This document shows positions 8,972 through 30,081 of a stretch of 33,941 nt of DNA, piece by piece. The notes under the pieces are model-generated. The model searched no databases, was not told the DNA's origin, and saw nothing but the letters and a program-made list of their open reading frames with translations. The number at the start of each line of letters is the position of its first letter. Positions within the stretch are counted from its first letter, which is position 1. Source of the DNA: Betaproteobacteria bacterium (GTDB lineage: Bacteria > Pseudomonadota > Gammaproteobacteria > Burkholderiales > Thiobacillaceae); assembly GCA_020061585.1 (NCBI GenBank), contig JAGUXX010000127.1, forward strand, positions 1-33,941, in the 5' to 3' direction. A program made the translations under genes and the position numbers.

Positions 8972-10490
<1,519 letters not shown>

Positions 10491-10498
10491 TTTTGCCC

Positions 10499-10822
10499 AT
10501 GTTGAATGAGCAGACCATCCTTGACGCAGCCCGACGCGCGGCCTCCGCCGCGTCACGTCCGGCCAGCGTGATGTTGTTTGGCTCCTACGCGCGTGGCGAG
10601 GCGGATGATCAATCCGATCTTGATCTGCTGGTCATTGAAGATGAAGTTGTCGACAAGGCGAGCGAATATTTGCGCATTCATCGCGCTATCGGATCGCTAG
10701 GTGTCGGCGTCGATGTGCTGGTGTTTTCGCGGCTGGATTTCGAACGGCGCAGTCTGGTCCCCGGCTCGCTGCCGTATCAGGTCAGGCTAGAGGGTAGACT
10801 TCTCCATGACGCCACAGGCTGA
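10499..10822 (+). CDS. MNT-type minimal nucleotidyltransferase (probable antitoxin of HEPN/MNT pair)
   Basis: The 107-residue protein has the polymerase-beta-like nucleotidyltransferase core: LFGSYARGEADD at 27-37 and SDLDLLV with D40 and D42, fitting G-S-x10-D-x-D. In characterised MntA-HepT systems the nucleotidyltransferase AMPylates and neutralises the HEPN RNase. The ATG at 10499 is preferred over an in-frame TTG at 10487 that would overlap guaB. The 3' end overlaps the HEPN gene by 17 bases, so the pair is co-translated. Its place between guaB and guaA is unusual. That it acts as an antitoxin here is inference from family and pairing. Confidence 0.88.
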   Translation: MLNEQTILDAARRAASAASRPASVMLFGSYARGEADDQSDLDLLVIEDEVVDKASEYLRIHRAIGSLGVGVDVLVFSRLDFERRSLVPGSLPYQVRLEGRLLHDATG

Positions 10823-11210
10823 AGAGGCGCAACGTCTGCTGCGTCTGGCGAAACGCGATCAAGGTACCTTCAGCTTGCTTGTCACCTTGCCACAATCGGA
10901 ACTGTCCGCGCTTGGCTTCCACGCCCAACAATCCGCCGAGAAAGCGCTCAAGGCGGTCACCGTGCATTCTGGATTGACCGTTTCAAGGACGCACGATCTG
11001 GTCGCGTTGGGTTCGGCGCTAACCATTGCTGGAGTTGAATTGCCGGTATCCGCTGAAGACTTGCGATTGCTGAACCCTTTTGCAGTCGAGTTTCGTTATG
11101 ACGATGAAGTCATCGCGTCAGTTACTCGCGATCAACTTGCGGACTGGTTGGCCGCAATCCTTGAGTGGGCCGCTGCGTGCATCAATCGTGTTGCAGATAG
11201 GCCCGAATAA
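10806..11210 (+). CDS. HEPN-domain protein (putative toxin partner of MNT)
   Basis: The 134-residue all-alpha protein carries the HEPN pattern: [14 protein letters not shown] at the start, the conserved [13 protein letters not shown] helix at 38-50, SRTHDLVAL near 60-68 and the FRYDDE segment near 96-101. I do not find the R-x4-H-x-Y catalytic motif of active HepT RNases, so it may be a nucleotide-binding or non-RNase HEPN, or use other residues. It overlaps the MNT gene by 17 bases, with GAGGG about 10 bases before its ATG. guaA follows 29 bases later and could be transcribed from the same operon. Confidence 0.85.
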
Positions 11211-11239
11211 CCCGTTTTTCCAAGGCTAACGTCCAAATC

Positions 11240-12802
11240 ATGCACGCCAAAATCCTGATTCTCGACTTCGGTTCCCAATACACCCAACTCATCGCTCGCC
11301 GCGTGCGCGAAGCCAACGTGTATTGCGAACTGCATCCCTATGATGTTACCGAGCAGTTCATCCGTGATTTTCAGCCTGCCGGCGTGATTCTCTCGGGCGG
11401 GCCGTCGTCGGTGACCGAAGACGACACGCCGCGCGCGCCGCTGGCGGTGTTCGAACTGGGCGTGCCGGTGCTGGGCATCTGCTACGGTATGCAGACCATG
11501 GCTGAGCAACTCGGCGGCAAGGTGGAAACCGCCAGCCACCACGAATACGGTTACGCCGAACTGCGCGCGCGCGGGCATTCCAGACTGCTGAATGAAGTAC
11601 AGGACCGCGTCGATCCGGATGGCAAGGCCTGGCTGGATGTCTGGATGAGTCACGGCGATCGCGTCGTGGAACTGCCGACCGGCTTCAAGGTGATCTGCGA
11701 CAACGCGTCGACGCCGGTGGCCGGCATGGCCGACGAAGAACGGCGTTTCTATGGCCTGCAGTTCCATCCGGAAGTCACCCATACCCTGCAAGGCAAAGCC
11801 ATCATCGGCCGTTTCGTGCACGAACTGTGCGGCTGCGGGCAGGACTGGAACATGCCGGATTACATCTCGGAAGCCGTCGCCAAGATCCAGGCCACTGTGG
11901 GCAACGATGAAGTCATCCTGGGCCTGTCCGGCGGCGTCGATTCATCCGTCGCGGCGGCGCTGATCCACAAGGCCATCGGCGATCAACTGACCTGCGTGTT
12001 CGTCGATACCGGCCTGTTGCGGCTGTACGAAGCCGAACAGGTCATGGAAACCTTCGGCAGGAATCTCGGTGTCAAGGTTATCCATGTCGATGCGACCGAA
12101 CAGTTCATGGGCAAACTGGCCGGCGTCGCCGACCCGGAAAAGAAACGCAAGATCATCGGCGGCGAGTTCGTCGCGGTGTTCCAGGCCGAATCCGCCAAAC
12201 TGGAAAATGCCCGATGGCTGGCGCAGGGCACCATCTATCCGGACGTCATCGAATCGGCCGGCGCCAAAAGCAAGAAAGCGCATGCCATCAAGAGCCATCA
12301 CAATGTCGGCGGATTGCCCGACGACATGCAACTGAAACTGCTGGAACCGCTGCGCGAACTGTTCAAGGACGAAGTACGCGAACTCGGCGTCGCCCTCGGA
12401 CTGCCGCACGACATGGTCTACCGCCACCCGTTCCCCGGCCCCGGCCTGGGCGTGCGCATCCTGGGTGAAGTGAAGCAGGAATACGCCGACCTGCTGCGTC
12501 GCGCGGATCACATTTTCATTGAAGAACTGCGCGCAAGTGGTTGGTATGAAAAGACTTCTCAGGCATTCGCCGTATTCCTTCCAGTCAAGGCGGTGGGGGT
12601 TATGGGCGATGGCCGTACCTACGATTACGTCATCGCGCTGCGCGCCGTGCAGACCCAGGACTTCATGACCGCGCATTGGGCGGAATTGCCTTACACGTTG
12701 CTGGCCAAGGTCAGCAACCGCATCATCAACGAGATACGCGGCATCAATCGGGTCACCTACGACATCACCGGCAAGCCGCCGGGCACCATCGAGTGGGAAT
12801 GA
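11240..12802 (+). CDS. guaA: GMP synthase (glutamine-hydrolysing)
   Basis: GuaA aminates XMP to GMP using glutamine and ATP. The 520-residue protein has an N-terminal class I amidotransferase domain (nucleophile C81 in LGICYGMQ, H176 and E178 in FHPEV), an ATP pyrophosphatase domain with the PP-loop SGGVDS at 230-235, and the C-terminal dimerisation domain with [16 protein letters not shown] and the ending PPGTIEWE. The 3' end of guaA is a recognised integration site for genomic islands, and the ICE integrase lies 364 bases downstream. The coding sequence is intact despite the insertion. Confidence 0.98.
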
Positions 12803-12809
12803 TTTGATG

Positions 12810-12901
12810 TCTGGCATCAGCTAGCATCAGCTAGCAAGAAGTACAACATAAGCCCATGTATGCATGGGCTTTTTGTTTTTATGATCTGGCATCAGCTGGC
12901 A
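12810..12901. repeat. Direct repeats flanking the guaA terminator (possible att arm sites)
   Basis: TCTGGCATCAGCTAGCA at 12810-12826 recurs as TCTGGCATCAGCTGGCA at 12885-12901, 16 of 17 bases identical. Inside the first copy GCATCAGCTA is tandemly doubled (12814-12823, 12824-12833). The repeats bracket the guaA terminator and lie between guaA and the integrase, where attachment arm sites are expected. They could also be scars of earlier integrations. Confidence 0.6.
12850..12880 (+). terminator. guaA: Rho-independent terminator of guaA
   Basis: A 9-base stem AAGCCCATG / CATGGGCTT (12850-12858 and 12863-12871) with a 4-base TATG loop is followed by a T-rich tract ending near 12880. It lies 48 bases after the guaA stop, within the island side of the junction. 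Confidence 0.85.
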
Positions 12902-12978
12902 ACTGCAAGCACGGCCAAGCAAGACCTGCGCGTGGCATTTTCACGGGTATCATTCCTGTAGGCAGTTTCTAGAAAGCA

Positions 12979-13121
12979 CGATACCATTCGTTGATGATGT
13001 GGTATTCGTGGTATCGAAAACATGCTTATGTGATTGTATATATTGATTAAAGTGCCGTTATTAGCGACCTTGAAATTCGTGGTATCGAATTTGAAGGTTA
13101 CTTGTTGTCGATGCCACGAAT
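12979..13121. repeat. Repeated TTCGTGGTATCGAA-type motifs upstream of the integrase
   Basis: ATTCGTGGTATCGAA occurs identically at 13004-13018 and 13075-13089. An inverted copy with one mismatch (as ATTCGTGGCATCG on the minus strand) is at 13109-13121, and an inverted TGGTATCG core is at 12979-12986. A partial GTGGTAT precedes the first copy at 12999. Their number, mixed orientation and place between guaA and int fit binding sites for the integrase arm domain or an excisionase at attL. The rest of 12902-13166 has no gene I can support. Confidence 0.65.
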
Positions 13122-13133
13122 AAACCATAAAAA

Positions 13134-13158
13134 CCTTGTATCTAATTGTTAAACAAGG
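13134..13158 (+). promoter_or_regulatory. Inverted repeat covering the integrase ribosome binding site
   Basis: CCTTGT (13134-13139) can pair with ACAAGG (13153-13158) across a 13-base loop. The right arm contains the AAGGA Shine-Dalgarno of the integrase gene (ATG 13167), so the stem would reduce translation if formed. Six base pairs is a modest stem, so function is uncertain. Confidence 0.35.
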
Positions 13159-13166
13159 AAAAACAA

Positions 13167-14363
13167 ATGCTAACTGATACCAAGATAAGGAACCTCAAGC
13201 CTCGGGACAGACTGTACAAGGTTGCGGATAGGGATGGGCTCTATGTGGCGGTCACTCCTGCGGCCAGTATTTCGTTTCGCTACAACTATGAGTTCAACGG
13301 CCGTAGCGAGACCCTGACCATAGGGCGCTATGGAACTGGTGGCATTACGCTCGCAGAGGCAAGGGACGCGTTGCATGAAGCCAAGCGGAAAATCGCTTCT
13401 GGGATCTCACCGGCCCAGGACAAGGCCAGATCCAAGGACAAGGAAAAGCAGGCCAAGACGTTTGACGACTGGGCTGAATCCTGGCTCAAAGGCTATCAGA
13501 TGGCGGACTCCACTCGCGACATGCGCAAAGCCGTTTACACAAGGGAGTTGAAGCCGGTTTTTGGCAATCGACTCTTGGCTGAAGTGACCCATGACGATCT
13601 GCGGCATCTAACTGACAAGATCGTCGAGCGCGGTGCTCCGGCCACGGCCGTTCATGCGCGTGAAGTGGTGATGCAGATTTACCGATGGGCATCCGAGCGG
13701 GGCCAGGATGTGGAAAACCCCGCGGATCGCGTCAGGCCGGCAGCCATCGCGAAATTCGTCCCCCGTGATCGGGCGTTGACTCAAGAAGAAATCGGTTTGA
13801 TGTACCAGTACCTGGAACGGGTTTCGACTTCCCCAACCATCCGCATAGCGGTAAAGCTTCTGTTGCTGACCTTGGTCCGCAAGTCAGAATTGACTGATGC
13901 GACTTGGGAAGAGGTGAATTTCTCGGATGGGATCTGGACCATACCTGCCGTCCGAATGAAGCGACGCAACCCGCACAACGTCTACCTGTCACGTCAGGCG
14001 GTCGATTTCTTCATTGCACTCAAAACCTGTGCAGGTGGCTCGCGTTATGTGCTGCCCTCAAGATATGACCCAGACATCCCGATGAGCAAGGCCACGCTGA
14101 ACCAAGTTACGACCTTGGCGTACACCGCGGCACAGAAAGATGGGAAGGTGTTGGCCAAGTTCGGGCCGCATGACCTGCGGCGCACTGGATCCACGTTACT
14201 TCATGAAGCCGGGTACAACACGGATTGGATCGAGAAGGCGCTTGCTCATGAGCAGAAGGGTGTTCGAGCCGTCTACAACAAGGCGGAGTACAGAGAACAG
14301 CGAAAAGCCATGCTGCAAGACTGGGCCGATATGATCGACGAATGGACGATCAAGAAGGCGTGA
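13167..14363 (+). CDS. int: P4-type tyrosine integrase of the ICE
   Basis: The enzyme catalyses site-specific integration and excision of the element. The 398-residue protein has an arm-type DNA-binding N-terminus (DUF4102-like, about 1-90, with LTDTKIRNLKP and DGLYVAV), a core-binding domain (about 98-180) and the catalytic domain with R238 (LTLVRKSEL), probable K265, H335-x-x-R338 (HDLRRTGS), H361 and nucleophile Y370. All catalytic residues are present. The ATG at 13167 with AAGGAA 7 bases upstream is preferred to a TTG at 13146. The gene lies next to guaA and its 3' end overlaps the convergent alpA by 14 bases. Confidence 0.95.
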   Translation: MLTDTKIRNLKPRDRLYKVADRDGLYVAVTPAASISFRYNYEFNGRSETLTIGRYGTGGITLAEARDALHEAKRKIASGISPAQDKARSKDKEKQAKTFDDWAESWLKGYQMADSTRDMRKAVYTRELKPVFGNRLLAEVTHDDLRHLTDKIVERGAPATAVHAREVVMQIYRWASERGQDVENPADRVRPAAIAKFVPRDRALTQEEIGLMYQYLERVSTSPTIRIAVKLLLLTLVRKSELTDATWEEVNFSDGIWTIPAVRMKRRNPHNVYLSRQAVDFFIALKTCAGGSRYVLPSRYDPDIPMSKATLNQVTTLAYTAAQKDGKVLAKFGPHDLRRTGSTLLHEAGYNTDWIEKALAHEQKGVRAVYNKAEYREQRKAMLQDWADMIDEWTIKKA

Positions 14364-14613
14364 TCCCTGGGCGCACAGCTTGATCGCCTGACGCCTTGCG
14401 AGCTTCAATCCACGCCTCGATTTCCGCCAGATCCCACGCCACATTTCGGCTGGTAAGCGCAAAGCGCCGTGGAAATTCCCCGCGCTTTTCCATATCGAAG
14501 ATGGTCCGGTCGGACAGCGGAACCATCTTCAGGAGCTGCTTTCGGTTGATCAGGGATTTGGTCGCAGGCAAAAACTCGTCATTCTTTTCGGGGCGCACCG
14601 CATTTCCTTCCAT
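14350..14613 (-). CDS. alpA: AlpA-family DNA-binding regulator / excisionase-like
   Basis: The 87-residue protein holds a winged helix-turn-helix of the AlpA/MerR-like excisionase type: LINRKQLLKMVPLSDRTIFDMEKRGEFPRRFALTSRNVAWDLAEIEAWIE, seen as SDRTIFDMEKRGEFP for the recognition helix and VAWDLAEIEAWI for the wing. Such proteins activate integrase genes or act directly as recombination directionality factors in ICEs and P4-like prophages. The ATG at 14613 lacks a good ribosome binding site; an in-frame GTG 15 bases later (at 14598) has AAGGA upstream and may be the real start. It is convergent with int, and a promoter with an embedded palindrome lies just upstream. Confidence 0.85.
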   Translation of the reverse strand: MEGNAVRPEKNDEFLPATKSLINRKQLLKMVPLSDRTIFDMEKRGEFPRRFALTSRNVAWDLAEIEAWIEARKASGDQAVRPGITPS

Positions 14614-14654
14614 GTAGTGTCGACGTGGGTTTCTGTTCCCAAGGAACGAGGTAA

Positions 14655-14684
14655 ATTATATACATGTGCAACGGTATATAACAA
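14655..14684 (-). promoter_or_regulatory. alpA promoter with embedded 8-bp palindromic operator
   Basis: On the minus strand TTGTTA (14684-14679) and TATAAT (14660-14655) are separated by 18 bases, a good sigma-70 promoter about 40 bases before alpA. A perfect inverted repeat TTATATAC / GTATATAA (14656-14663 and 14674-14681, 10-base spacer) spans the -35 to -10 interval, an ideal position for repression. Confidence 0.6.
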
Positions 14685-14734
14685 ACCATGCTTGCCGCTG
14701 CGCCACCTTGCCAGCGTGATGCCCCACGATGCCG

Positions 14735-15436
14735 TTACACGTATTTTTTGTAGTATTTGGCCTGAAACCGTGCCAGGGCAGCACAAGCAAGAGCAGCCGG
14801 CACAAGGATCAGCAACGGATCCACATCGCCAGGCCACCAAAGGTAGGCGGCCGACACCACGGTCGCCATGGTCACCTGGAAGTATTTCGCGCGGTGATAG
14901 ACCGTCGACGATTCGCGCCCGGCGCCGAACTTGCGCCGGGTGCGTTCGATGGCGCCATCCACGAATGCGAGCAGGTACATGAAGCCGATCCAGGGCAGGT
15001 AGGAAACCATGATTGCGGCGCGGATCGCGATCACCTGAGAGCCGGTGAGCGTTCTGGTGATGGCGAAGTCCATTGAGCGGACCCCACGCAGTACGGCCTG
15101 GTCGGTCATACCCAACCGGGATTGATCTTCCTCGATGTGCCTCAACAGCCCCGGCTTGCGATAGAACCATTCCGTGATGAAGGCCGCCCAGGATATCGCC
15201 CGGTCATGGGTCGATCCCATGAAATCCGGAGCGGCGGCCGCCTTGGCCATCTCGCGGTCGATGATCTCGGCAGGGGCGTCAAGCCGATCCCTGGCATCCG
15301 CCAACACCCACACATCGATGGCCATGCGGCCGACCAGGATCACGAAGAAACCGATCGCCAGGAAGGCGGCGATCTTGAAGGGGGCCGTGATGGCCTTGGT
15401 AACCCCGATATCGATCGCCGCGCCATCTCCGGCCAT
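14735..15436 (-). CDS. ICE membrane protein, DUF4400 type (TIGR03747-like)
   Basis: The 233-residue protein has an N-terminal membrane helix (IAAFLAIGFFVILVG), a soluble region with WAAFITEWFYRKPGLLRHIEED, and C-terminal hydrophobic segments around SYLPWIGFMYLLAFVDGAIERTRRKFGAGRES (seen as GFMYLLAFVDG and RRKFGAGRES) and LLILVPAALACAAL. This matches the integral membrane protein encoded beside traD in SXT/R391 and PFGI-type elements. Its role in conjugation is not defined; location suggests help for the coupling protein. The start is taken as ATG 15436, overlapping the traD stop in TGATG; GTG 15439 is equally possible. It is the last gene of the traI-traD unit; 14614-14734 downstream is noncoding. 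Confidence 0.85.
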   Translation of the reverse strand: MAGDGAAIDIGVTKAITAPFKIAAFLAIGFFVILVGRMAIDVWVLADARDRLDAPAEIIDREMAKAAAAPDFMGSTHDRAISWAAFITEWFYRKPGLLRHIEEDQSRLGMTDQAVLRGVRSMDFAITRTLTGSQVIAIRAAIMVSYLPWIGFMYLLAFVDGAIERTRRKFGAGRESSTVYHRAKYFQVTMATVVSAAYLWWPGDVDPLLILVPAALACAALARFQAKYYKKYV

Positions 15437-20303: not shown

Positions 20304-20519
20304 ATGATAATTTTGTTTGATACTAAAACTGTACAAAAAATGGGGCGTGTCGTATTGGGCGAGGCGTTATTGAAGAATGCTGGGTTGCGGGAAGGCGACG
20401 AGGTGGAAATTTACTTCGATGCAGTTCATAAGCACATCGTCATAAAACGGGCCAGCGACTCTGAGGCGCAAGACCGTACGCCCGCTAACAAGCCTACGCA
20501 GCAAAGGAAAAAGGGATGA
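20304..20519 (+). CDS. AbrB/SpoVT-like small DNA-binding protein
   Basis: The 71-residue protein resembles a swapped-hairpin AbrB (MazE-type) domain: VQKMGRVVLGEALLKNAGLREGDEVEIYF, seen as GRVVLGEALLKNAGL and REGDEVEIYFD, then HIVIKRA. The usual proline in VxLP is replaced by glycine. The C-terminal 20 residues are basic and polar (NKPTQQRKKG). Such proteins are toxin-antitoxin antitoxins or transition-state regulators. As the first gene of the cargo operon, overlapping the next by 4 bases, it is probably an autoregulator; a structural role is not excluded. The coding sequence is clearly more AT-rich than the tra genes. Confidence 0.75.
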   Translation: MIILFDTKTVQKMGRVVLGEALLKNAGLREGDEVEIYFDAVHKHIVIKRASDSEAQDRTPANKPTQQRKKG

Positions 20520-21430
20520 GTGGCACGCAAGAGCGAACAGAGCGGTTCTCTGGACACGAATCCTTTGTATGCCGCTACGGCTGGCTGCCCAAGATTTACA
20601 ACGCGATCGGCCGAGACCCGTTACTCCTCAAAGACGAAGCCAAGTCCATCCACAAGCTGGGCATCGGACGCAACATGGTCAAGTCGCTGCAGTTCTGGGC
20701 CGAGTCAACCGGCGTGATCACCAACGACGGAACTGATGGTCACGCCCAAGGGCCTCTGGGTGATCTGCTGTTTGGTGAGCAAGGCTGGGATCCTCACCTA
20801 GAGAGCCTGGAGTCCCTATGGCTGATCCACTGGTGTTTGAGCACATCGGCGGGCATCGCGGTATGGAACGAAGTTTTTGGCGAGGGGCGACTGATTCGCT
20901 TCGATCGCCAAAAACTAATCGCGGCGCTGACTCAACGAGGTGCAGGCCTTACGCGACCTCTGGCTCCTAGCACTTTGGAGCAACACGCTTCCATCTTTGT
21001 TCAGTCCTACTACCAGAGCGAGCGCGGTACAGACGACACATCGTGGTGTCCATTGCAAGACCTGGGGCTGATCAAAGCATCCAAGTCCGACGATAGTCGA
21101 ATCATCTATGACACGGAGCAGATTGCCCCGGTCGGTTTGACCGTGCGAGTGTTCTTCTTGGCGCTGGTCGATTTCGTGCTTCGCCGAGGCAACGGATCCC
21201 ATTCTGCCGACCTGTCTCAGGTTCTCAAAGGGTCATACAGCCCCGGCATCGTGTTCCGCCTGGACGAGTACCAACTACGTCAATATCTGGAGGCTATACC
21301 CAAAGACTTTGCGCTTGGCAACGCCTTCCGCTTCAACGACACCGCTGACACTCAGAGCATCTTTCTGGACCCAATGAGTCTGGGCGAGCAATGGCTTCTG
21401 TCTACGCAGAAAGAACTAGAAAATGCGTGA
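20516..21430 (+). CDS. DUF4007-family protein of a putative defence operon
   Basis: The 304-residue protein matches DUF4007: FSGHESFVCRYGWLPK at 11-26, then LGIGRNMVKSLQFWAESTGVI near 47-67, and GWDPHLESLESLWLIHW. No catalytic motif is evident; the early part looks like a helical, possibly DNA-binding, scaffold. From general knowledge, DUF4007 genes recur in defence islands next to PAPS-reductase-like (DndC/SspD/BrxP-like) genes and large ATPases, exactly the neighbours found here. It overlaps the AbrB-like gene by 4 bases and the ATPase gene by 8. A good ribosome binding site (AAGGA, about 8 bases) precedes the ATG. Specific function unknown. Confidence 0.85.
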   Translation: MSGTQERTERFSGHESFVCRYGWLPKIYNAIGRDPLLLKDEAKSIHKLGIGRNMVKSLQFWAESTGVITNDGTDGHAQGPLGDLLFGEQGWDPHLESLESLWLIHWCLSTSAGIAVWNEVFGEGRLIRFDRQKLIAALTQRGAGLTRPLAPSTLEQHASIFVQSYYQSERGTDDTSWCPLQDLGLIKASKSDDSRIIYDTEQIAPVGLTVRVFFLALVDFVLRRGNGSHSADLSQVLKGSYSPGIVFRLDEYQLRQYLEAIPKDFALGNAFRFNDTADTQSIFLDPMSLGEQWLLSTQKELENA

Positions 21431-24400
21431 TTACATCATTGACATCCTGGCACTCAACGAACGGCACACGAGGTCCATCTCCCTGACGCGTGATCTATAT
21501 GAAGACACCGCGTTAGACGGCTACCTGCTGACCCCCAACAGTCTGACTGCATTGAGACAAATTGGAGAGGGCTTGGCTTCGGGGCGCCCCCAAAGAGCAT
21601 GGCGTGTAGTTGGACCCTACGGTAGTGGCAAGTCGGCTTTGGGCGTGATGCTTGCGCAACTCCTTGCAGGTTCCCAGGCATGTCCTCATGCAGCCAAACT
21701 CGTTGCATCAGCTTCCAAGACTGTCAGCGCATGTTTTACCAAGGCCGATCGTTTGTCAGTTGCCGTGGTGGGTGCTCGTGTGTCGTTTGGTAGCGAACTG
21801 GCCAATGCGCTGCTGGCTGCGGCAACGAAGCTGAGCAAATCCAAAGCTGTTGCTACTTGGAAAAAGCAGATTGATCTTGAAGGGTGCACTTACCAAGGAC
21901 GCCCGCTGTCGGCAGTCGCCGGAAAACTGGCTTCGGATTTCGCTAATCTGGCCGTAATTGAGGGCTATCGAGGCCTCGCTTTGTTGATTGACGAGGTTGG
22001 GAAGTTTGTCGAATACGCGGCGCTGCATCCGGATCAGGGCGATCTCATCGCTCTGCAACAGGTTGCTGAGGCGGCATGCACCGCACAAAGCGACAAGCTG
22101 ATGGTGGTCACAATGCTTCACCAACACTTCGCCAGCTATGCCGCCGGTGTTGGCCGAGCGCTGAGCGACGAATGGCACAAAGTGTCAGCGCGCTTTGAAG
22201 AAGTCCCCTTTGACGAACCGGTAGAGCGATATGCGCATTTCGCTGCCCACGCGCTTGGTGTGTCGGCAGAAGTAAAGAAGGACAAGGCACTTTGTGCGCA
22301 AGCGACGTCGCTTTACGAACAAGCGGTGCACCTGGGCATTCTGCGTGCCAGTACTGCCGCAGAAAAAAACCTGTTCAAGAGAGCAGAGACTCTTTACCCA
22401 CTCCATCCGCTCGTGCTGTCCACTTTGGCTGTCGTGTCCAAGCGGTACGGGCAGAGCGAGCGCTCATTCCATGCCTTCATCAAGGGCCACGAGCCCAAAG
22501 GGCTGCGAGAGTTTGCCAGCAAAGCAAACATCCCGTCGTGGTACACGCTTCCAAACCTGTACGACTACTTGGCTGAGGGCCACGGCCTACGCTTCCGTGA
22601 TCTCAGCGCGGAGCGTCGCTGGGCCTATGCAAGCAGTGCCATTGATCGCACTGATCTGAACGAGCAAGCTCTCGCAACACTGAAAACCATTGCGGTCCTG
22701 GAGCTTGCCCAAGCTGGCCAGCATGCATCCTTGCCCATCGACTTGATCGCCTACGGGCAAGGAGAGGCAGACCCAGCCACACTGGTAGGCACACTGAACC
22801 TGCTTTTTGACCAGGGTGTCTTGATTCGAAGAAAGGGCCATCGGGAGTACGCGATGGCTGTGTCGGAAGCAGTCAATGTAGAGGCCCTCTACGAGCAAGC
22901 AGCCCGGGCTAACGAAGATGCCCTGGTGATCAGCGGGATCAGCAAGGCTCTTTCAGACCGCACCATTGTTGCGAGCAGACATTACGACGAGACCGGCACC
23001 ATTCGCACAATGGGCATGCTCGTGGGAACCATCGACAGCCCTCCCAGCCCCCCAAAGACCAAGGGAGAAGAACCGAAGCCTGACGCCTGGCTGAAGCTCC
23101 TCTTGATTCCAGAGGCGCTCAAAGGCGATGAGCGCGTCGCTATCGCTATTCAGTCGGAACAAGACGAGCTCACGCTCTTGGCCCCCCTGTACTTGACCAG
23201 CGATGGACGGGCCGCACTCGCAGAATTCGCCATTTGGCAGAACGTTCAACGCGAGGTAACGAAAAGCCGCCTGGACCCTTGGACTTCGCGCTATGTGGAG
23301 TCCCGCATTGAAGAGGCCGCCCGGTCGATCGACCGCTTGGTCACCAGCGCGCTCACGCCCAACCCTGACTCTCAAGGCCCCACCTACTGGCACTGTGGCG
23401 CCCTGATCGAAGGGAGTGAGCAACAAAACCCAAACCAGCTGGCGTCCTGGCTCTTCAATACCGTCTACTCACAAACACCACGGATCATCAATGAGCTGAT
23501 CAACAAGGACAAGCCTGCATCAGCCATTGTGTTGGCGCGACAGCGCATGTTCGATGTGATCCTCAGTGGAGATTACACTCGCCCAATTTGTAGGGAGAGC
23601 GAGTTTCCCCCGGAGCGCCTGATTCACACCACGCTGCTGCGTGACACTGGTCTTTGGGTTGAAGGAAATGGTCAGTGGCGATTGACCAACCCAGATGGCA
23701 GAGCCCCCATCAACATTGGTGCAGTTTGGACAGAGATATCCCTTCAACTCGCATCTGAGGATCCCACAACCTTCTCCGATTTGCTGACCATCTTAGCTTT
23801 GCCGCCGCTGGGGGTGCGTGCAGGTCCTGCAGGCATCTGGGTGGTGTTGTACCTGCTGATCAATCGGTCCCGTTGTGCCGTTTTCGAGCGTGGCACGTTA
23901 GTGCTTGAACTGACAGCAGAGCACCTGCAGCGTATGTACAAGAACCCGAACACATTCCAGCTTCGGGAGCTGACCAATGCTGAAGCCAGCAAGAAACTGC
24001 TGACCGACTACAGGGCGGCACTCGCCAGCGTGGGGTGTACGTTTGAGGCAGAGCATACATACTTAGAGATCGCTCGTGTTTTGATTCGCTGGTTCGCCAG
24101 GTTGCCTGACTATACCAAGCAAACACAGAGGGTCAGCAAAGACGCAGCGCTAGTCCGCACGCTGCTGACCAAAGCAACGGACCCGATTGAGCTGCTAGCC
24201 AAGACCGTGCCGCGTTGCCATGTGGAGTCCAAGTCAAAACTGAGTCTCGGTGATTGGTTGACCAATACCTTGACAGACATCGGCATGGCACATCGACGAC
24301 TGCAAGACAGGGTCACAGATGAGTTGAGTCGAGGCTTTTCAATCGGTGGACCTTTGGGGCGCATCCGAAATCAGCTTCAAGCTGAATGCTCAAAAGAAGC

Positions 24401-24857
24401 CTCGAAGCTGGCCGATACCAAGCTGAAGAGCTTCATCTTGCGATGCACAGACTTGTTGTTGACCGATGAGAAGTGGCTTGACTCGGTTGGTGGCCTTCTT
24501 GTTCAACGCCCGCTAGATGCTTGGTCTGACGACACGTTTAGCAAGTTCCAAGAGCGACTGACTGAACTCTGCGGTCAATATAGGCGTTGGATGCAGGTGG
24601 TCATGCACCGTGGCCAAGCCCCGCAAGCGGCTGATCGTTTCGTTGGCCTGACACTGACCCTTTCCGGTGGCGAAGAAGCGTCCGTGTTCGTCACAACCAA
24701 CGAAACTTCGTCTGCACTGGCTAAAGACCTGTTGGCTATGGCGGCCAAAACAGCAAACGGCAACACCGAACTTGCGGCTGCTGCCCTAGCTCAAGCGCTG
24801 CTAGATTTGCAGACCAAGAACAAAGACGCAGTCGAGAGGGACGTTCGTCATGGGTGA
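21423..24857 (+). CDS. Large P-loop ATPase (1144 residues) of a putative defence operon
   Basis: The N-terminal third is an AAA/ORC-like ATPase: Walker A GPYGSGKS at 64-71, Walker B LALLIDE at 185-191, then VVTMLHQHFASYA (about 228-240) and EWHKVSARFEEVPFDEP (about 250-266), a sensor and arginine pattern also seen in BREX BrxC/PglY-like and other defence ATPases. The remaining ~850 residues are helical and not recognised; there is a proline-rich linker PPSPPKTKGEEPKPD near 540. No nuclease, helicase or methylase motif is visible. It overlaps both neighbours by 8 bases, indicating strict co-expression with DUF4007 and the PAPS-reductase-like enzyme. A role as motor or sensor on DNA is inference. 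Confidence 0.85.
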   Translation: MRDYIIDILALNERHTRSISLTRDLYEDTALDGYLLTPNSLTALRQIGEGLASGRPQRAWRVVGPYGSGKSALGVMLAQLLAGSQACPHAAKLVASASKTVSACFTKADRLSVAVVGARVSFGSELANALLAAATKLSKSKAVATWKKQIDLEGCTYQGRPLSAVAGKLASDFANLAVIEGYRGLALLIDEVGKFVEYAALHPDQGDLIALQQVAEAACTAQSDKLMVVTMLHQHFASYAAGVGRALSDEWHKVSARFEEVPFDEPVERYAHFAAHALGVSAEVKKDKALCAQATSLYEQAVHLGILRASTAAEKNLFKRAETLYPLHPLVLSTLAVVSKRYGQSERSFHAFIKGHEPKGLREFASKANIPSWYTLPNLYDYLAEGHGLRFRDLSAERRWAYASSAIDRTDLNEQALATLKTIAVLELAQAGQHASLPIDLIAYGQGEADPATLVGTLNLLFDQGVLIRRKGHREYAMAVSEAVNVEALYEQAARANEDALVISGISKALSDRTIVASRHYDETGTIRTMGMLVGTIDSPPSPPKTKGEEPKPDAWLKLLLIPEALKGDERVAIAIQSEQDELTLLAPLYLTSDGRAALAEFAIWQNVQREVTKSRLDPWTSRYVESRIEEAARSIDRLVTSALTPNPDSQGPTYWHCGALIEGSEQQNPNQLASWLFNTVYSQTPRIINELINKDKPASAIVLARQRMFDVILSGDYTRPICRESEFPPERLIHTTLLRDTGLWVEGNGQWRLTNPDGRAPINIGAVWTEISLQLASEDPTTFSDLLTILALPPLGVRAGPAGIWVVLYLLINRSRCAVFERGTLVLELTAEHLQRMYKNPNTFQLRELTNAEASKKLLTDYRAALASVGCTFEAEHTYLEIARVLIRWFARLPDYTKQTQRVSKDAALVRTLLTKATDPIELLAKTVPRCHVESKSKLSLGDWLTNTLTDIGMAHRRLQDRVTDELSRGFSIGGPLGRIRNQLQAECSKEASKLADTKLKSFILRCTDLLLTDEKWLDSVGGLLVQRPLDAWSDDTFSKFQERLTELCGQYRRWMQVVMHRGQAPQAADRFVGLTLTLSGGEEASVFVTTNETSSALAKDLLAMAAKTANGNTELAAAALAQALLDLQTKNKDAVERDVRHG

Positions 24858-25677
24858 GCAGAAACGGCTTAGGCATATCCTCAGCCTGTCAGGTGGCAAG
24901 GACAGCGCTGCGCTGGCCATCTACATGCGTGATCGGGTACCGGAGATGGAATACATCTTCAGCGACACCCGGAAGGAGCTCCCTGAAACGTACGAGTACC
25001 TGGACAGGATCTCCAGCTACTTGGGCAAAGAGGTTGTCCGCCTAAACGCTGACATTGGTTTTGATCACTGGTACGAGATGTACGGTGGGATGATCCCCTC
25101 CAACCACCGTCGCTGGTGCACGCGGGCGCTCAAGCTTAAGCCCTTCGAGCAATATTGTGGTGACGACGAGGTTGTCAACTACGTTGGCTTGCGTGCTGAA
25201 GAAAATCGAAGTGGCTACATCAGCCACAAGCCCAACATCAAAGCCGTTTACCCCTTTCGTGAAGACGGATTGGTGCTACGAGATATTGAAGAAATTCTCC
25301 GCACATCAGGCGTTGGGATGCCTCCATATACCAAGTGGGGGCGAACACGATCGGGATGCTACTTCTGTTTCTATCAGCAAAAGATCGAGTGGGTGCGCCT
25401 TAAGGAAACGTATCCAGATTTGTACGAAAAAGCCAAGGAATACGAGCGCCCGTACGAGAAGACCGGCAACTTTTTTACATGGAGCCAAGGCGAAAGTCTC
25501 CTAGAACTAGAGAAGCCTGAAAGGATGGAGCAGATCAAGCGAGAACATGCCATTAGAATAGAGCGACAAATAAACAGACGGGAAAATGCCACGTTGCTTG
25601 AAGTATTCTCTAGCGCAGAGACGCCTGAAGAGCCCGAAGAAGATGACGACCAGGGTTGCATCGTCTGCTCCCTGTGA
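24850..25677 (+). CDS. PAPS reductase/DndC-like PP-loop enzyme
   Basis: The 275-residue protein has the N-type ATP pyrophosphatase PP-loop SGGKDSA at 14-20, the SDTRKELPETYEYLDR segment, and HRRWCTRALKLKP at 86-98 typical of this family. Cysteines C90, C103, C170 and C173 (GCYFC) and C270 and C273 (GCIVC) could hold an iron-sulfur cluster, as in DndC/SspD, which adenylate DNA phosphate before sulfur insertion. The cysteine motif of assimilatory PAPS reductases (sulfate pathway) is absent, so a sulfate role is unlikely. No cysteine desulfurase (DndA/SspA), DndD or DndE is nearby; host IscS could supply sulfur. It overlaps the ATPase gene by 8 bases. DNA or nucleotide modification is inferred. 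Confidence 0.9.
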   Translation: MGEQKRLRHILSLSGGKDSAALAIYMRDRVPEMEYIFSDTRKELPETYEYLDRISSYLGKEVVRLNADIGFDHWYEMYGGMIPSNHRRWCTRALKLKPFEQYCGDDEVVNYVGLRAEENRSGYISHKPNIKAVYPFREDGLVLRDIEEILRTSGVGMPPYTKWGRTRSGCYFCFYQQKIEWVRLKETYPDLYEKAKEYERPYEKTGNFFTWSQGESLLELEKPERMEQIKREHAIRIERQINRRENATLLEVFSSAETPEEPEEDDDQGCIVCSL

Positions 25678-25683
25678 GGAATC

Positions 25684-28104
25684 ATGACCTTTAATATCAA
25701 AGCAAGAGTACTTCTGGAGCTTGGAGCTGAGCTCATTAGTTCCGACGGCATCGCTCTCTACGAGCTAATCAAGAACTCAGTGGATGCAGGAAGCGAAAGC
25801 GTCGATATCCGCGTCAGCGTGGCTCTGACCGCATCCGGCTATCGAGTACTGCAATCAAAGTTAGCCTCCTTACCGGCAGAAACACGTCTGCGGCGGGCGT
25901 GGCTTGAGGATGCAACCCAACGTTATTTCGAGAGTACCGCGTCCGACGAGCTTCGCGGGGCGTTCATCAACCGCCTCAATGGTCTCGGCCTCAAAGAGGC
26001 GGAGATTGCCGCAGAGGAGTTCTACCGTGAGTTCACCTTCATCGAAGTGGAGGACTGGGGCTGCGGGATGTCGATCAAGGACCTGCAGACCAAGTTTCTG
26101 ACGGTTGGTACTCCCAATCGTGCTCATGAACGTCAACGCCTCGGAAGAGCCGGAAGGTTGCTGGGTGAAAAGGGCATTGGACGGCTCTCCGCGATGCGCC
26201 TGGGAATGGCCACTGAGGTGATCACTGGCACCGAGGATGATCGTAAATGGGCAACCTTGGACATCGACTGGTCGAAGCTTCGTGACGATCCAGACATGGA
26301 TCTCGATCAGTTTGCCGCGGAGCCAAAACATGGTGAGCCGAAGCAGGCCGGCGAAAAGGGTACGCTCATCCGGATCAGTGACCTTCAGAGCGATTGGTCG
26401 CTTTCCAGGCTCACATCGCTTGCGCGCGCGGAGTTCTCCAAGCTTCAGGATCCATTCGAAACCACTGGAGCGGTCCTCGACATCAAGCTCTCATTCAATG
26501 GCAAGGATGTGACGGCTGTCGAAGAGCTCGACACCGAATGGCTCAACAAGTGGCACGGCTACTTCGAAATGTCGTTCACCTACAAGAAGATGAACCCACG
26601 CGATATAGAGGATCTGCGTGAGCAACCCGCCCTAAGTGGCACAGCGAAGTTCCGCTTGCCCAAACCGCCAGATGCCGCAGAAGCAATCGACGTCATTGAT
26701 GAGAAGGACATCGACGCATCGGGAGACAGCCTCTACAGCCTTCTGGCTTCCCCTGAGTACGCCGTCACCGGAGGCACCATCAACTATGCGTCGCGATTCG
26801 CGGGTATCGATACGCTGGGGCCGTTCAAGGCCGAGGGGTTCTGGTTCAATCGGCAGCGAGCCAAGCAAGAGCTCGGTGATCAGTACGCAAAGTTCATTGC
26901 CTGGCTCGAACAATGGGGCGGCGGCTTACTTGTCTACCGTGATGGGTATCGGGTGTATCCCTATGCAGCCCCTGACGACGACTGGCTAGAGCTCGACCAG
27001 AAGGCGCTACGTCGGAAGTCTTTCAAGCTGAACCGCGGCCAGTTCGTGGGGTACGTGCGCATTACATCGCTGGGAAATCGCGAGCTGCGCGATCAGACCA
27101 ATCGCCAGGGACTTTGCGATACGCCTGAGAAGCGCGCACTCGTCCAATGCATGCAGTACGTCATCTGGAAGGAGTTGGGTGCGCTCGTGACGAAGCACGA
27201 AGAGCGAATGGCGCGCCAATCGCTCACCACCGTGCGTGAGATCGAGAAGCAGGTTACCGAGCATGCGAAGGACGCCAAGGTCAAGCTGCGAGAACTAGCC
27301 AAACGAGTGCCTGAAGAGCACCAGACGGTCGCCGATCTTCGTGGCTATGTCGAGGAGCTTGAAGCAGCTTGGGCTGCGGCGAAGAAGACGTTGAAGAAGC
27401 AGGCGAGCCAAGCGGAACTTTACCTCCACTTGGCCGGGGTTGGCATGCTGTTGGAGTTTGTGATCCATGAACTGAATCGGGTCACTGGTGCGACCTTGCA
27501 GGACTTGCAGAAGATGAGCGGTAACGCGTTGCCGCCAGGCCTGAAGTCCCTCGCACGTCAACTTCAGACATTGGACAAGCGCCTGCGGATCTTGGATCCG
27601 GTGAGTACACCTGGGCGCCAGCGCAAGGAGGAAACTGACGTCGTCGAAGTTCTGCGGACGCTCTTGGACGCACACGAGCAGCAGTTTGATCGGCATGCCA
27701 TCAAGGTGCACCTCAATCTCCTACCGCAGGACAATCACTTGGTGTCCAGGGTGATCGTAGGTCAGATGTATCAGATCTTCGAGAACCTGATCGTGAACTC
27801 CGTCTATTGGTTGGCCCACCATCGAGCGATGAGGCGCGTTGACGGTGATGAGTTATTCGAGGCGTTGATCGAGATCGAAGTCGATGCAGGTGCGCAAACT
27901 ATAACGTTCCGAGACAACGGGCCTGGGATTGAGTGGGCTGATCGAGAGAAGATCTTTGAGCCTTTCTTCAGCAAGAAACCATCGGGTCGGGGCATAGGCC
28001 TCTACATCGTCAAGAGTTTGTGTAAAGAAAACGAGATCACCTTGTCGCTGCTTGAGAGAACAGCCGAGGGAACAGTTCCAGGATTCAAGTTCGAGATGCC
28101 ATAA
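25684..28104 (+). CDS. Double-GHKL ATPase: MORC/Hsp90-like N-terminus with histidine-kinase-like C-terminus
   Basis: The 806-residue protein has two separate GHKL modules. The N-terminal one has N-box ELIKNSVDAG (27-36), DWGCGMS (124-130) and GEKGIGRLSA (161-170), resembling MORC, MutL or Hsp90. The C-terminal one is histidine-kinase-like: N-box ENLIVNS (700-706), DNGPGI (744-749), IFEPFFSKK and GRGIGLYIVKSL (768-779), with a possible phospho-acceptor H595 in the preceding VIHELNRVTG helix. A coiled-coil-like linker (about 510-580) joins them. No transmembrane segment is seen, so it is cytosolic. A GAGGA site lies 5 bases before the ATG and the gene follows the PP-loop enzyme by 6 bases. It probably signals to the REC-like protein encoded next. 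Confidence 0.88.
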   Translation: MTFNIKARVLLELGAELISSDGIALYELIKNSVDAGSESVDIRVSVALTASGYRVLQSKLASLPAETRLRRAWLEDATQRYFESTASDELRGAFINRLNGLGLKEAEIAAEEFYREFTFIEVEDWGCGMSIKDLQTKFLTVGTPNRAHERQRLGRAGRLLGEKGIGRLSAMRLGMATEVITGTEDDRKWATLDIDWSKLRDDPDMDLDQFAAEPKHGEPKQAGEKGTLIRISDLQSDWSLSRLTSLARAEFSKLQDPFETTGAVLDIKLSFNGKDVTAVEELDTEWLNKWHGYFEMSFTYKKMNPRDIEDLREQPALSGTAKFRLPKPPDAAEAIDVIDEKDIDASGDSLYSLLASPEYAVTGGTINYASRFAGIDTLGPFKAEGFWFNRQRAKQELGDQYAKFIAWLEQWGGGLLVYRDGYRVYPYAAPDDDWLELDQKALRRKSFKLNRGQFVGYVRITSLGNRELRDQTNRQGLCDTPEKRALVQCMQYVIWKELGALVTKHEERMARQSLTTVREIEKQVTEHAKDAKVKLRELAKRVPEEHQTVADLRGYVEELEAAWAAAKKTLKKQASQAELYLHLAGVGMLLEFVIHELNRVTGATLQDLQKMSGNALPPGLKSLARQLQTLDKRLRILDPVSTPGRQRKEETDVVEVLRTLLDAHEQQFDRHAIKVHLNLLPQDNHLVSRVIVGQMYQIFENLIVNSVYWLAHHRAMRRVDGDELFEALIEIEVDAGAQTITFRDNGPGIEWADREKIFEPFFSKKPSGRGIGLYIVKSLCKENEITLSLLERTAEGTVPGFKFEMP

Positions 28105-28128
28105 GGCACGCAGAGGGAGTAGAGAACA

Positions 28129-30081
28129 ATGAATGTCGAAGCAGTCGCTGAGGTCAATCGCCGCAAGGCCGTCCTGATTGACGATGCCTACCTCCGACCG
28201 TCGCCAGAGGACTTGAGGCGAAGCCTGCCGCCTCTGCGAAGGTTCTTGAGGAACGTGCCCGCAGCCAAGGAGTGGTTCGACGCGACCTTTGGCCTCAACG
28301 GTAGCGCATCAGACCGGAATTACTTTGAGCCTCTGCTCGCTAGCGAACAGCGCACCGTGGAGCTTTGGGATCGTAGAGGTGAATGCCCTGAAAGTCAGAG
28401 GCTCTTGGATGAAGGTCTGGCTGACCTTGTCGCTGAAGTGGCGCCGTTGAGGCTTCCTCTCGAACAGGTCGAAGCAACGCTCACAGAGCAGGCTTGGGAG
28501 TTCGAGCGCTTCGGATCTTTGCCTGATCTGAAGGCGGTTCCAGCGGATGCGAGCCTCGTTGTTATCGACTACGTGCTCACGCCCGACACGCCGGCCGACA
28601 TGGAGGTGAAGGTCGATGAGAGTACGCAGTTTTTGCAGGGTCTTGTCCGACGCGCAGCTGGCTCCGAAAGAGGGCTACCGTTGATTGTGCTTGTTTCGAG
28701 TCGCCCCAATGTTGCTAAGGGCCATGCGGAGGCGTTCAGAAAGGCCGTAGGCCTGCATGGTGGCTATTTTCACTTCATTCGCAAGATCTCGGTACTGCAA
28801 GAGTTAGGGCTTCGCATTGACGGCTTCACTGCGGAGGTCGAGGAGCTGGAGAGCTACCGGCGGGTTCACGTGGCACTGCGCGACGCTCTTCAAACTGCAT
28901 GCGCATCATTAGCCGGCGACATTGACAGCATGGAACTCCAAGATCTCGCCGCGCTGCATGTCGGGCACCTGATTCATGAAGGGGAACCGCTCAGCGACTA
29001 CCTAGGCTGGATGCTCGGACAGGCTCTCACCGTCAAACTGCAGGAGAGCGTGACGTTTGCGGACGCATCCGGCCAGTTGCCGCCTGAGAACCATCGGGTG
29101 CTGCTCGGGCACTTGGAGCCTACACAGTGCATTCCCCAGCTCTTCTGTGAGGCCTCTACGGTTCGAACTGCATCCGGCCAGCTCCACAAGGTGACCAAAG
29201 GCTCGCGAGAGCTGCGATTCGGAGACATCTTTGTAGGCAAGGACGGACGGAAGGTCGACCTGTCGAGATTCCGCTTGGTTCTCAGTCAAACTTGCGACCT
29301 GCTGCAGGGGAAGATCACGAATGGCCAGGCTCTATGTGCGGAAGGGCGCGGTACCGAGGTCGCCAACACGGAGACGGAACTGATGCGGGCTACTTTGCGT
29401 CAACTCGACGACAAGGGAAGCACGCTCCTCCGCCTAGACGGAGGAAAATACTATCAGGTCGAGTGGAATGAGGTGAACCTGATCACGATTGAGCAGGCGA
29501 AGCTGAAGAGGGAGCAAGGCTACCGCTACGTCGGCCGCTTGAACGAGATCTACGCTCTCGAGGTTCAGCACAATGCGCTGAACAAGTTAGGTCGAATCGG
29601 TGTGCCGATCAAGCCTGGGTATGGTCTGGTTTTTGGAGCAATGCGTCTGAGGATTTGGGGCTCGAAGGCCGAGCAGGTTGCTCTAGCAAAGTCGTTCGAC
29701 AACAGGACCGTGACGGCCGTGCTCAGGCCGTTGCCCAAAAATCAAGTCGCGATCTTGCTATCAGCAGAAGTCAAGAAGTGGTTGGTTGACCAGCTTGGTC
29801 AATTGCAGGACGCGCTGCCGAAAGAAGTCCGTGACATCTCGCAGCAGCTGAGTGAGTGGATCAAGGCCGATGGAGACTTTCGCCTCTTCTGTAAGCAAGT
29901 TCACAGCGGCGAGATGAAACTGGGCGTGATGAAAGAGAAGGAAGAAAAAGGCAAGATGGTGAAAGAGACGGTATGGCAGAGTAAGCTGTCAATCGACTTC
30001 GGCGCCGCAGCTGTCTTTTCCAATCCCGTCACATCGGCTCAAGGACCTCGCTTGCAGATCGAACTAGATCCTATCGCGTGA
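28129..30081 (+). CDS. Divergent receiver-domain protein with unknown C-terminal output region (650 residues)
   Basis: The N-terminal ~225 residues fit a receiver fold: acidic pair D18-D19 in KAVLIDDAY, candidate phospho-acceptor D147 in LVVIDYVLTPD, S190-S191 in LIVLVSSRPN and K219 in FHFIRKIS. A ~115-residue insertion separates the first acidic strand from D147, which is unusual. The remaining ~420 residues are not recognised; they contain a CDLLQGK region near 390 and a charged KEKEEKGKMVKE stretch near the end. No helix-turn-helix or known catalytic motif is evident. It lies 24 bases after the double-GHKL gene with a GGGAG ribosome binding site. I infer it is the response partner and possibly the effector of the system. 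Confidence 0.8.
   Translation: MNVEAVAEVNRRKAVLIDDAYLRPSPEDLRRSLPPLRRFLRNVPAAKEWFDATFGLNGSASDRNYFEPLLASEQRTVELWDRRGECPESQRLLDEGLADLVAEVAPLRLPLEQVEATLTEQAWEFERFGSLPDLKAVPADASLVVIDYVLTPDTPADMEVKVDESTQFLQGLVRRAAGSERGLPLIVLVSSRPNVAKGHAEAFRKAVGLHGGYFHFIRKISVLQELGLRIDGFTAEVEELESYRRVHVALRDALQTACASLAGDIDSMELQDLAALHVGHLIHEGEPLSDYLGWMLGQALTVKLQESVTFADASGQLPPENHRVLLGHLEPTQCIPQLFCEASTVRTASGQLHKVTKGSRELRFGDIFVGKDGRKVDLSRFRLVLSQTCDLLQGKITNGQALCAEGRGTEVANTETELMRATLRQLDDKGSTLLRLDGGKYYQVEWNEVNLITIEQAKLKREQGYRYVGRLNEIYALEVQHNALNKLGRIGVPIKPGYGLVFGAMRLRIWGSKAEQVALAKSFDNRTVTAVLRPLPKNQVAILLSAEVKKWLVDQLGQLQDALPKEVRDISQQLSEWIKADGDFRLFCKQVHSGEMKLGVMKEKEEKGKMVKETVWQSKLSIDFGAAAVFSNPVTSAQGPRLQIELDPIA

Follow-up and report, generated by a model that had tools for sequence, protein, structure and literature searches.

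The window analysed here, a stretch of 33,941 nucleotides (contig JAGUXX010000127.1) from a Betaproteobacteria bacterium of the Thiobacillaceae, carries a six-gene operon at positions 20304-30081. By homology, genes 2 to 4 correspond to sspB, sspC and sspD, which are known from phosphorothioation, and genes 5 and 6 (g5 and g6) encode a predicted histidine kinase and its receiver partner. It is an evenly balanced proposition that the operon represents an Ssp defence locus in which a phosphorelay cassette, g5-g6, replaces the usual SspE or SspFGH restriction part. It is highly probable that g5-g6 functions as a partner cassette of Ssp, and the chances of its being an effector that acts through a phosphorelay are about even. 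A MazF-like toxic activity of the g6 output, which is suggested by predicted models, is a more tentative idea. Our best reading is that g5-g6 constitutes a third exchangeable effector cassette of Ssp, beside SspE and SspFGH, with a toxic output that we infer.

The modification genes were identified with PADLOC models. Gene 2 (20516-21430, plus strand, 304 amino acids [aa]) matched SspB (PDLC02764, E 9.6e-112, 371 bits) and Pfam DUF4007 (E 7.7e-56). Gene 3 (21423-24857, plus strand, 1144 aa) is an SspC ATPase, with 1558 bits for SspC (PDLC02777) and 268 bits for BrxC, and no above-cut-off match in Pfam (AAA_16, E 0.074). Gene 4 (24850-25677, plus strand, 275 aa), a PAPS-reductase-type enzyme, matched SspD (PDLC02782) at 395 bits, compared with 16 bits for DndC and 46 bits for BrxP. 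On these scores gene 4 is SspD, and the ATPase and the DUF4007 protein are its usual partners. An earlier note on this DNA had suggested an undescribed system whose gene set fitted no named one; this was too strong, since genes 2 to 4 belong to the named Ssp system, although they are the only ones of the six that PADLOC names. The note's remark that the operon lacks DndA, DndD, DndE and PglZ is explained by its identity as an Ssp locus, and its description of a defence-type operon joining phosphorothioation and phosphorelay logic in one transcription unit still stands. No sspA gene was found within the operon. In a published system, IscS serves in place of SspA (PMC8092258; this and the other articles given by PMC number are cited from excerpts). 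By analogy, one of the 11 Aminotran_5 matches found elsewhere in the genome of this bacterium (best, 295 bits) could stand in for SspA.

The link between g5-g6 and ssp was assessed in plasmids and genomes. A plasmid search with g6 yielded 8 records, all 8 of which also matched g5 and SspD. With g5 as the query, 337 records were obtained, including 16 at 28% identity or more (H9-H24), and in 16/16 the same region contains sspD, no more than about 15 kb away (for H17, from the match listing). We also scanned 84,980 species genomes with a profile of 12 g5 proteins, which gave at least 587 pattern matches and at least 510 relatives; the best 80 loci were used, so that the g5-g6 counts are lower bounds. 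These loci comprise 10 kb flanks or extend up to contig ends, and the absence of ssp or SspFGH genes refers to the fetched DNA. On the basis of g5 hidden Markov model (HMM) scores, the 80 loci split into 43 Ssp-type loci, at 469 bits or more, and a distant group. g6 directly follows g5 in 41 of the 43, the remaining two stopping at the contig end, and sspB/C/D genes are present in 37. Among the six ssp-less loci, three (L025, L035 and L052) have SspD elsewhere in the same genome. When genomes and plasmids are combined, the fetched DNA contains sspB/C/D for 50 of 56 Ssp-type members, and the genomes of 3 others encode sspD at another place, whereas none of the 40 distant relatives has any ssp match in the DNA fetched for it. 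Among 398 evenly sampled Pseudomonadota genomes, 11 had a strong SspD match, including that of the window itself, the 10 others scoring at least 299 bits. A chance neighbourhood of g5-g6 and ssp was thus rejected (50/56 compared with 11/398 genomes and 0/40 distant relatives). A tree of 96 g5 proteins separates the 56 Ssp-type members from all 40 others with a support of 0.987. According to the record titles, the members come from Pseudomonadota, Chloroflexota, Planctomycetes, Akkermansia (Verrucomicrobiota), Acidobacteria and Magasanikbacteria; a class-level search with g6 found only the genome of the window among 369. g5-g6 is a minority partner of Ssp, and Ssp is nearly obligatory for g5-g6.

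We compared protein distances across the 45 loci that have all five genes. The correlations were 0.93 between g5 and g6, 0.96 between sspB and sspC, and 0.82-0.83 between sspD and either sspB or sspC, whereas those across the two groups reached only 0.29-0.34. None of 2,000 permutations attained any of the observed values. The high correlations within groups and low correlations between them indicate two cassettes that swap partners, and g5-g6 is one co-evolving cassette exchanged between sspBCD loci. Its position relative to the ssp genes varies: it may follow sspD, separate sspC from sspD, lie upstream of the ssp genes or converge with them. The earlier note had asked whether genes 1-4 and 5-6 might be mere neighbours. 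Seen from g5-g6, they are not, as the counts above indicate; seen from ssp, they partly are, the cassettes being exchanged and other sspD loci lacking g5-g6 (see below). The complete six-gene order recurs in 7 other loci (L019, L020, L021, L023, L027, L040 and L063), so the arrangement in the window is not due to chance, and the same-order co-occurrence that the note had proposed to look for does exist. The distance set leaves out L055 (positions and scores nearly as in L039), L054 (ssp scores as in L033, same isolate name) and L017, whose g5 is split over three frames and which is also left out of the counts; A3 and A6 omit L048 as well as L034 and L054, two loci at contig ends. Genes in pieces (g5 of L017 and L058, sspC of L034 and L056) were used as separate pieces, unmended. 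L017 is one Acinetobacter baumannii plasmid-collection record, with the split g5 at 9986-12330; the frame is open in L008, L146 and L147.

Gene 5 (25684-28104, plus strand, 806 aa), the first half of the cassette, encodes a soluble double-GHKL histidine kinase with Pfam HATPase_c_3 and HATPase_c domains. Its N-terminal GHKL ATPase core, of the MutL/MORC/Hsp90 type (residues 117-201, 26032-26286, plus strand), matches HATPase_c_3 with an E-value of 6.6e-15 and, by profile, Hsp90-family chains weakly (best E 1.1e-6). The C-terminal kinase GHKL domain (residues 694-804, 27763-28095, plus strand; HATPase_c E 3.7e-17) matches solved histidine kinases by profile, the best being LvrB at 3.1e-21. A DHp-like segment lies between the two; HEF_HK aligns to residues 586-640 with an E-value of 0.073 and 14.0 bits against a cut-off of 24.1. 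The predicted phospho-accepting histidine of its H-E motif, His595 (27466-27468, plus strand), and the adjoining Glu596 are found in 56/56 members, and 54-56 of the 56 retain the ATP-site residues checked in the two GHKL domains, with gaps in the remainder.

Gene 6 (28129-30081, plus strand, 650 aa), the second half, encodes a receiver-effector protein without a family match in Pfam, PADLOC or NCBIfam. The earlier note's call of a receiver domain is nevertheless borne out. In the region spanning residues 10-230 or so (28156-28818, plus strand; inferred limits, with a long insertion), D18, D19, D147 and K219 are present in 54/54 aligned members and S190 in 53/54. By profile, this region matches the receiver-type partners of the distant g5 relatives, and the profile of those partners finds solved response regulators. 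Response_reg_2 matched 2 of 41 g6 members at E-values up to 1 (best 0.0026), the g6 of the window not being one of them. Asp147 (28567-28569, plus strand; 54/54) is the predicted phospho-accepting aspartate. The invariant residues of g5 and g6 are together what a working His-Asp phosphorelay requires.

We modeled g6 with AlphaFold2 on 41 members (predicted local distance difference test [pLDDT] 81, predicted TM-score 0.65). After the receiver, the model has a helical linker followed by a beta-rich C-terminal part. A MazF/PemK-like barrel with a GD...xxCD...RxG motif was placed at about residues 360-490 (29206-29598, plus strand) with Foldseek on predicted models, its limits being drawn from secondary structure as Foldseek supplied no aligned range. 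G365, D390 and R489 occur in 54/54 members in this output region and C389 in 53/54. The first 27 matches of the full model in the PDB were all MazF/PemK-type or CptN-type toxins. With a model of the C-terminal part only (pLDDT 77), the top three PDB matches were CptIN and two Staphylococcus aureus MazF-type toxin chains (E 1.9e-3 to 2.2e-2). In BFVD, the four best matches were endoribonucleases or resembled PemK (E 1e-4 to 4.6e-3). A second beta-rich region, identified by the secondary structure of the models at about residues 499-648 (29623-30072, plus strand), gave no confident fold match. The predicted C-terminal fold is therefore likely to be MazF/PemK-like and its activity remains a guess, because sequence profiles find none of MazF/PemK. 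The earlier note had seen no recognisable nuclease in the operon, which holds for family searches but should now be qualified by this predicted output fold.

Next to sspBCD, g5-g6 often occurs without the established restriction genes. Searches for SspF, SspG and SspH used HMMs built from triads in plasmid loci, which were afterwards matched to the PADLOC SspF, SspG and SspH models through L012 and L007 proteins. No SspF-, SspG- or SspH-like match was found in 32 of 49 fetched sspC loci. At the g5-g6 loci, phmmer with one SspE query returned 0 matches. The PADLOC SspE model, which scored its positive control, found none among 51 large open reading frames (ORFs) from 25 of the 31 loci without SspFGH; the other six have no further ORF of at least 550 aa. 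In the window operon, PADLOC detected neither SspE nor SspFGH. In the draft genome to which it belongs (336 contigs), the one SspE model searched reached 26 bits over positions 2-110 only, and all that an SspH query returned was an FtsK-like match along its C-terminal part. Published counts leave room for another effector, with 196 of 2,678 sspBCD occurrences having sspFGH, 199 sspE, and 36 both, and published trees show SspE and SspFGH scattered over sspBCD (PMC8092258).

Side observations were made on other partners. A triad of a helicase, a MutL-type GHKL ATPase and a PLD-type nuclease lies near sspBCD in 5 of 10 sampled sspD loci (L129, L131, L132, L133 and L135), of which L133 also has SspE, and at one g5-g6 locus (L057); the triad could represent one more partner module of Ssp. 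In L130, genes resembling PbeA and PbeC, which form a Dnd-type partner, come immediately after sspABCD (10331-14802), and Ssp modification and a Pbe-type partner are combined in this hybrid locus.

The distant g5 group consists of 40 members at 237-384 bits, from 37 genome loci and 3 plasmid loci (L059-L062, L064-L066, L068-L097 and L014-L016), in which a double-GHKL kinase is followed by a mostly shorter receiver protein. The large ORF after g5 often starts with a receiver-like IDD. An alignment of 19 partners from the 40 loci matched g6 over both the receiver and output regions (hhalign 99.3%, E 4.8e-20), with shared D, C-D and R positions where aligned. The neighbour scan covered 106 of 197 ORFs, from 24 of the 40 loci. 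A C5 methylase was found within 6 kb at 23 of 40 distant loci but at 0 of 56 Ssp-type loci. HEF_HK/Response_reg_2 kinase-receiver pairs were described at type II restriction-modification loci in 2021 (PMC8011034), and by its architecture and C5 methylase context the distant branch looks like this published family.

These elements can be assembled into a putative mechanism. By analogy with homologous systems that have been characterised, single-strand phosphorothioate marks would be placed on self DNA by SspBCD together with a cysteine desulfurase of the host. g5, whose MutL/MORC-like GHKL ATPase occupies the place of the sensor in an ordinary kinase, may sample DNA or the SspBCD machinery and would be activated by unmarked, replicating phage DNA. 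The invariant residues strongly suggest that g5 would then autophosphorylate at His595 and pass the phosphate to Asp147 of g6. If the predicted fold is a guide, phosphorylation might activate the MazF/PemK-like output at the C terminus of g6. This output would probably be a toxic activity directed at RNA or nucleic acids, which would halt the phage, and perhaps the cell, with marked DNA keeping the output off. Like SspE and SspFGH, the cassette would be swapped among sspBCD loci. A broader and rather doubtful proposal is that self and non-self are read by a MORC/MutL-like sensor kinase and relayed from His to Asp to a MazF-fold toxin, not by a nuclease at the DNA, that the same module docks on phosphorothioate or methylcytosine marks, and that it accounts for the effector lacking from some of the orphan sspBCD loci.

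Several results weigh against g5-g6 being the toxic effector of Ssp. Foldseek support for the MazF-like domain is modest, with a best E-value of 4.9e-4 and a target TM of about 0.57 for the full model, and 1.9e-3 at best for the domain alone. No PemK match was found in 41 g6 members at E-values up to 1, nor any match in a profile search of the PDB, and the invariant output residues are a different set from the MazF catalytic residues. The cassette is not always the sole candidate effector, since 17 of the 49 sspC loci also carry SspFGH-like genes. At three loci (L029, L047 and L049), from metagenome-assembled genomes or a fragmented draft, g5-g6 is present and a genome-wide look for sspD gave none. 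In the Pseudomonadota sample, g5-g6 was found at 0 of the 10 other sspD loci, 3 of which have SspFGH and at least 1 SspE, so that the combination is a minority form of Ssp. Finally, phosphotransfer, DNA sensing and toxicity are all things that we infer.

Some of these points lend themselves to other explanations. g5-g6 might be an ordinary two-component regulator that tunes ssp expression or the phosphorothioation level rather than an effector. Its kinase and receiver architecture fits such a role, the SspFGH-like genes at the 17 loci would be possible targets, and in 2020 histidine kinase genes beside an Acinetobacter Ssp locus were guessed to regulate SspE (PMC7464106). We regard this as unlikely, as Pfam detects no helix-turn-helix or other transcription-factor output in g6, where the output part is MazF-like and rich in beta structure. 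Relative to sspBCD, the cassette can be upstream or downstream, lie within, or point the opposite way, and the 32 loci without SspFGH-like genes show no SspE either. The cassette could also be a direct restriction enzyme, in which the GHKL clamp finds unmarked DNA and the C-terminal region of g6 cuts or nicks it under phosphorelay control. MutL/MORC-type GHKL ATPases act on DNA, residues 116-285 of g5 resemble restriction enzymes of the BbrUII/HgiDII kind (E 1.7e-20; 73 bits, the cut-off being 550), and the invariant D390 and R489 with near-invariant C389 lie in the output region. However, Pfam, PADLOC and Foldseek on models revealed no DNase family or fold for g6, its best fold being that of endoribonuclease toxins, which makes this explanation improbable.

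Two further explanations carry very little probability. The MazE-like similarity of g1 and the MazF-like fold of g6 could be taken as a toxin-antitoxin pair flanking the operon; yet g1 occurs in only 8 of 56 g5 loci and some loci have an XRE-type regulator by ssp, and as a general logic this pairing was rejected. g5-g6 might instead be an independent defence system that merely neighbours sspBCD. The partner exchange with its cross-correlation of only about 0.3, the sampled sspD loci that lack g5-g6 and the three g5-g6 loci without sspD would fit, but the frequency of ssp alongside g5-g6 relative to its rarity among sampled genomes, and its absence from the 40 distant relatives, leave this very improbable. 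We thus favour g5-g6 as an exchangeable effector cassette of Ssp.

The operon resembles several known systems. It shares sspB, sspC and sspD homologues with SspABCD-SspE and SspABCD-SspFGH, as well as the principle of a modular, exchangeable partner beside the modification genes (PMC8092258). Unlike them, it has a kinase-receiver pair as the partner and no SspE, SspFGH or sspA; it thus belongs to Ssp by its sspB, sspC and sspD, and not by SspE or SspFGH. The A. baumannii global clone 2 locus is likewise an Ssp without sspE, and in the A. baumannii plasmid-collection loci, presumably the same locus, g5-g6 is convergent with sspDCB. In 2025, an Acinetobacter Ssp adjoining histidine kinase genes was said to possibly suggest a new Ssp variant (PMC12421847); in the excerpted text of the global clone 2 publication, no output fold, cross-phylum survey or test was found. 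The HEF_HK/Response_reg_2 pairs, relatives of paraMORC, similarly combine a HATPase_c_3, DHp-like and HATPase_c kinase with an adjoining receiver protein (PMC8011034). They differ in that neither Pfam model reaches its cut-off on g5 or g6 of the window, that the C5 methylase neighbourhood is missing from the Ssp-type loci, and that Ssp-type g5 forms its own clade; the terms phosphorothio, PAPS, DUF4007 and Ssp are absent from the main text of PMC8011034.

Type 4 BREX has BrxC/SspC-, PAPS-reductase- and DUF4007-type genes (PMC12839542), but no PglZ or BrxL was found among 26 scanned window proteins (the six with Pfam and PADLOC, 20 flanking ORFs with Pfam), and the SspC and SspD models far outscore BrxC and BrxP. 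For Dnd, the best DndC model stays at the 16 bits given above, and PADLOC found no DndD or DndE. The phosphorelay logic of Detocs, from a kinase to a receiver-fused effector, may be shared; the residues for it are invariant among the g5 and g6 members. Detocs comprises three genes, one of them a phosphate-buffering receiver, whereas only two of the six window genes are phosphorelay genes, and we know of no DNA-modification partner of Detocs. No Detocs-named PADLOC match was obtained for g5 or g6, PADLOC not having been checked for such a model. As names for the gene set, Dnd, Type 4 BREX and Detocs were rejected; PADLOC gives SspB, SspC and SspD for genes 2 to 4. g6 resembles the MazF/PemK toxins in the fold of its predicted models, at modest E-values, and not by sequence family.

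In the open PMC literature, we came across no account of the cassette that spans phyla, and none of its exchange, of the fold of its output or of a link with the restriction-modification branch. In the excerpts, DefensePredictor (PMC13092281) has HATPase and REC together in one figure legend, an eLife article of 2020 (PMC7159879) has one passage on receiver domains, and the main text of PMC10853773 yielded none of 'histidine kinase', 'receiver' or 'GHKL'. A kinase beside the Acinetobacter Ssp and the parent kinase/receiver family at restriction-modification loci (2021) are already in print; g5-g6 is the new part here.

The remaining gene, g1 (20304-20519, plus strand), encodes a small AbrB/MazE-like protein of 71 aa (Pfam AbrB-like E 8.4e-4, MazE E 0.0066, both below cut-off). 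Among the domain calls of the earlier note, DUF4007, the PAPS-reductase-type enzyme and the double GHKL held, while the AbrB-like call is weak. Homologues of g1 lie directly 5' of sspB in 7 other loci; occurring in 8 of 56 loci, it is a minority accessory gene, and it is likely to act as an operon autoregulator. It was not found at the locus of the closest relative, L018, whose g5 is 73% identical; at some g5 loci, the ssp genes are accompanied by an XRE-type regulator in its place. The six ORFs, all on the plus strand, are joined by overlaps of 4, 8 and 8 bases and then gaps of 6 and 24 bases, as the note had it. A scan for promoters and terminators gave no more sites than in shuffled sequences.

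The operon sits in an integrated conjugative element, in agreement with the cargo site proposed earlier. guaB and guaA (9030-12802) are followed by an integrase gene (13146-14363), by DUF4400 and minus-strand TraD and TraI_2 genes and, from 30496 onward, by SLT, TraL, TraE and TraK genes (Pfam scan of flanking ORFs). The G+C content is 63-64% at 15-19 kb, 52-58% at 20-30 kb and about 64% after 31 kb, and the lower value over the operon fits the expectation for cargo. The integrase gene lies directly downstream of guaB-guaA (9030-14363), which suggests the 3' end of guaA as the integration site.

Most published sspBCD occurrences had no recognised restriction partner in the survey that counted them (PMC8092258), and g5-g6 is a concrete, testable candidate for part of them. 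The invariant His, Asp and CD/R residues offer clean single-residue test points. Our analysis suggests that modification-based defence could signal by phosphorelay rather than cut DNA directly, and the kinase, receiver and output architecture shared with cytosine-methylase loci would make the module a general add-on to modification systems.

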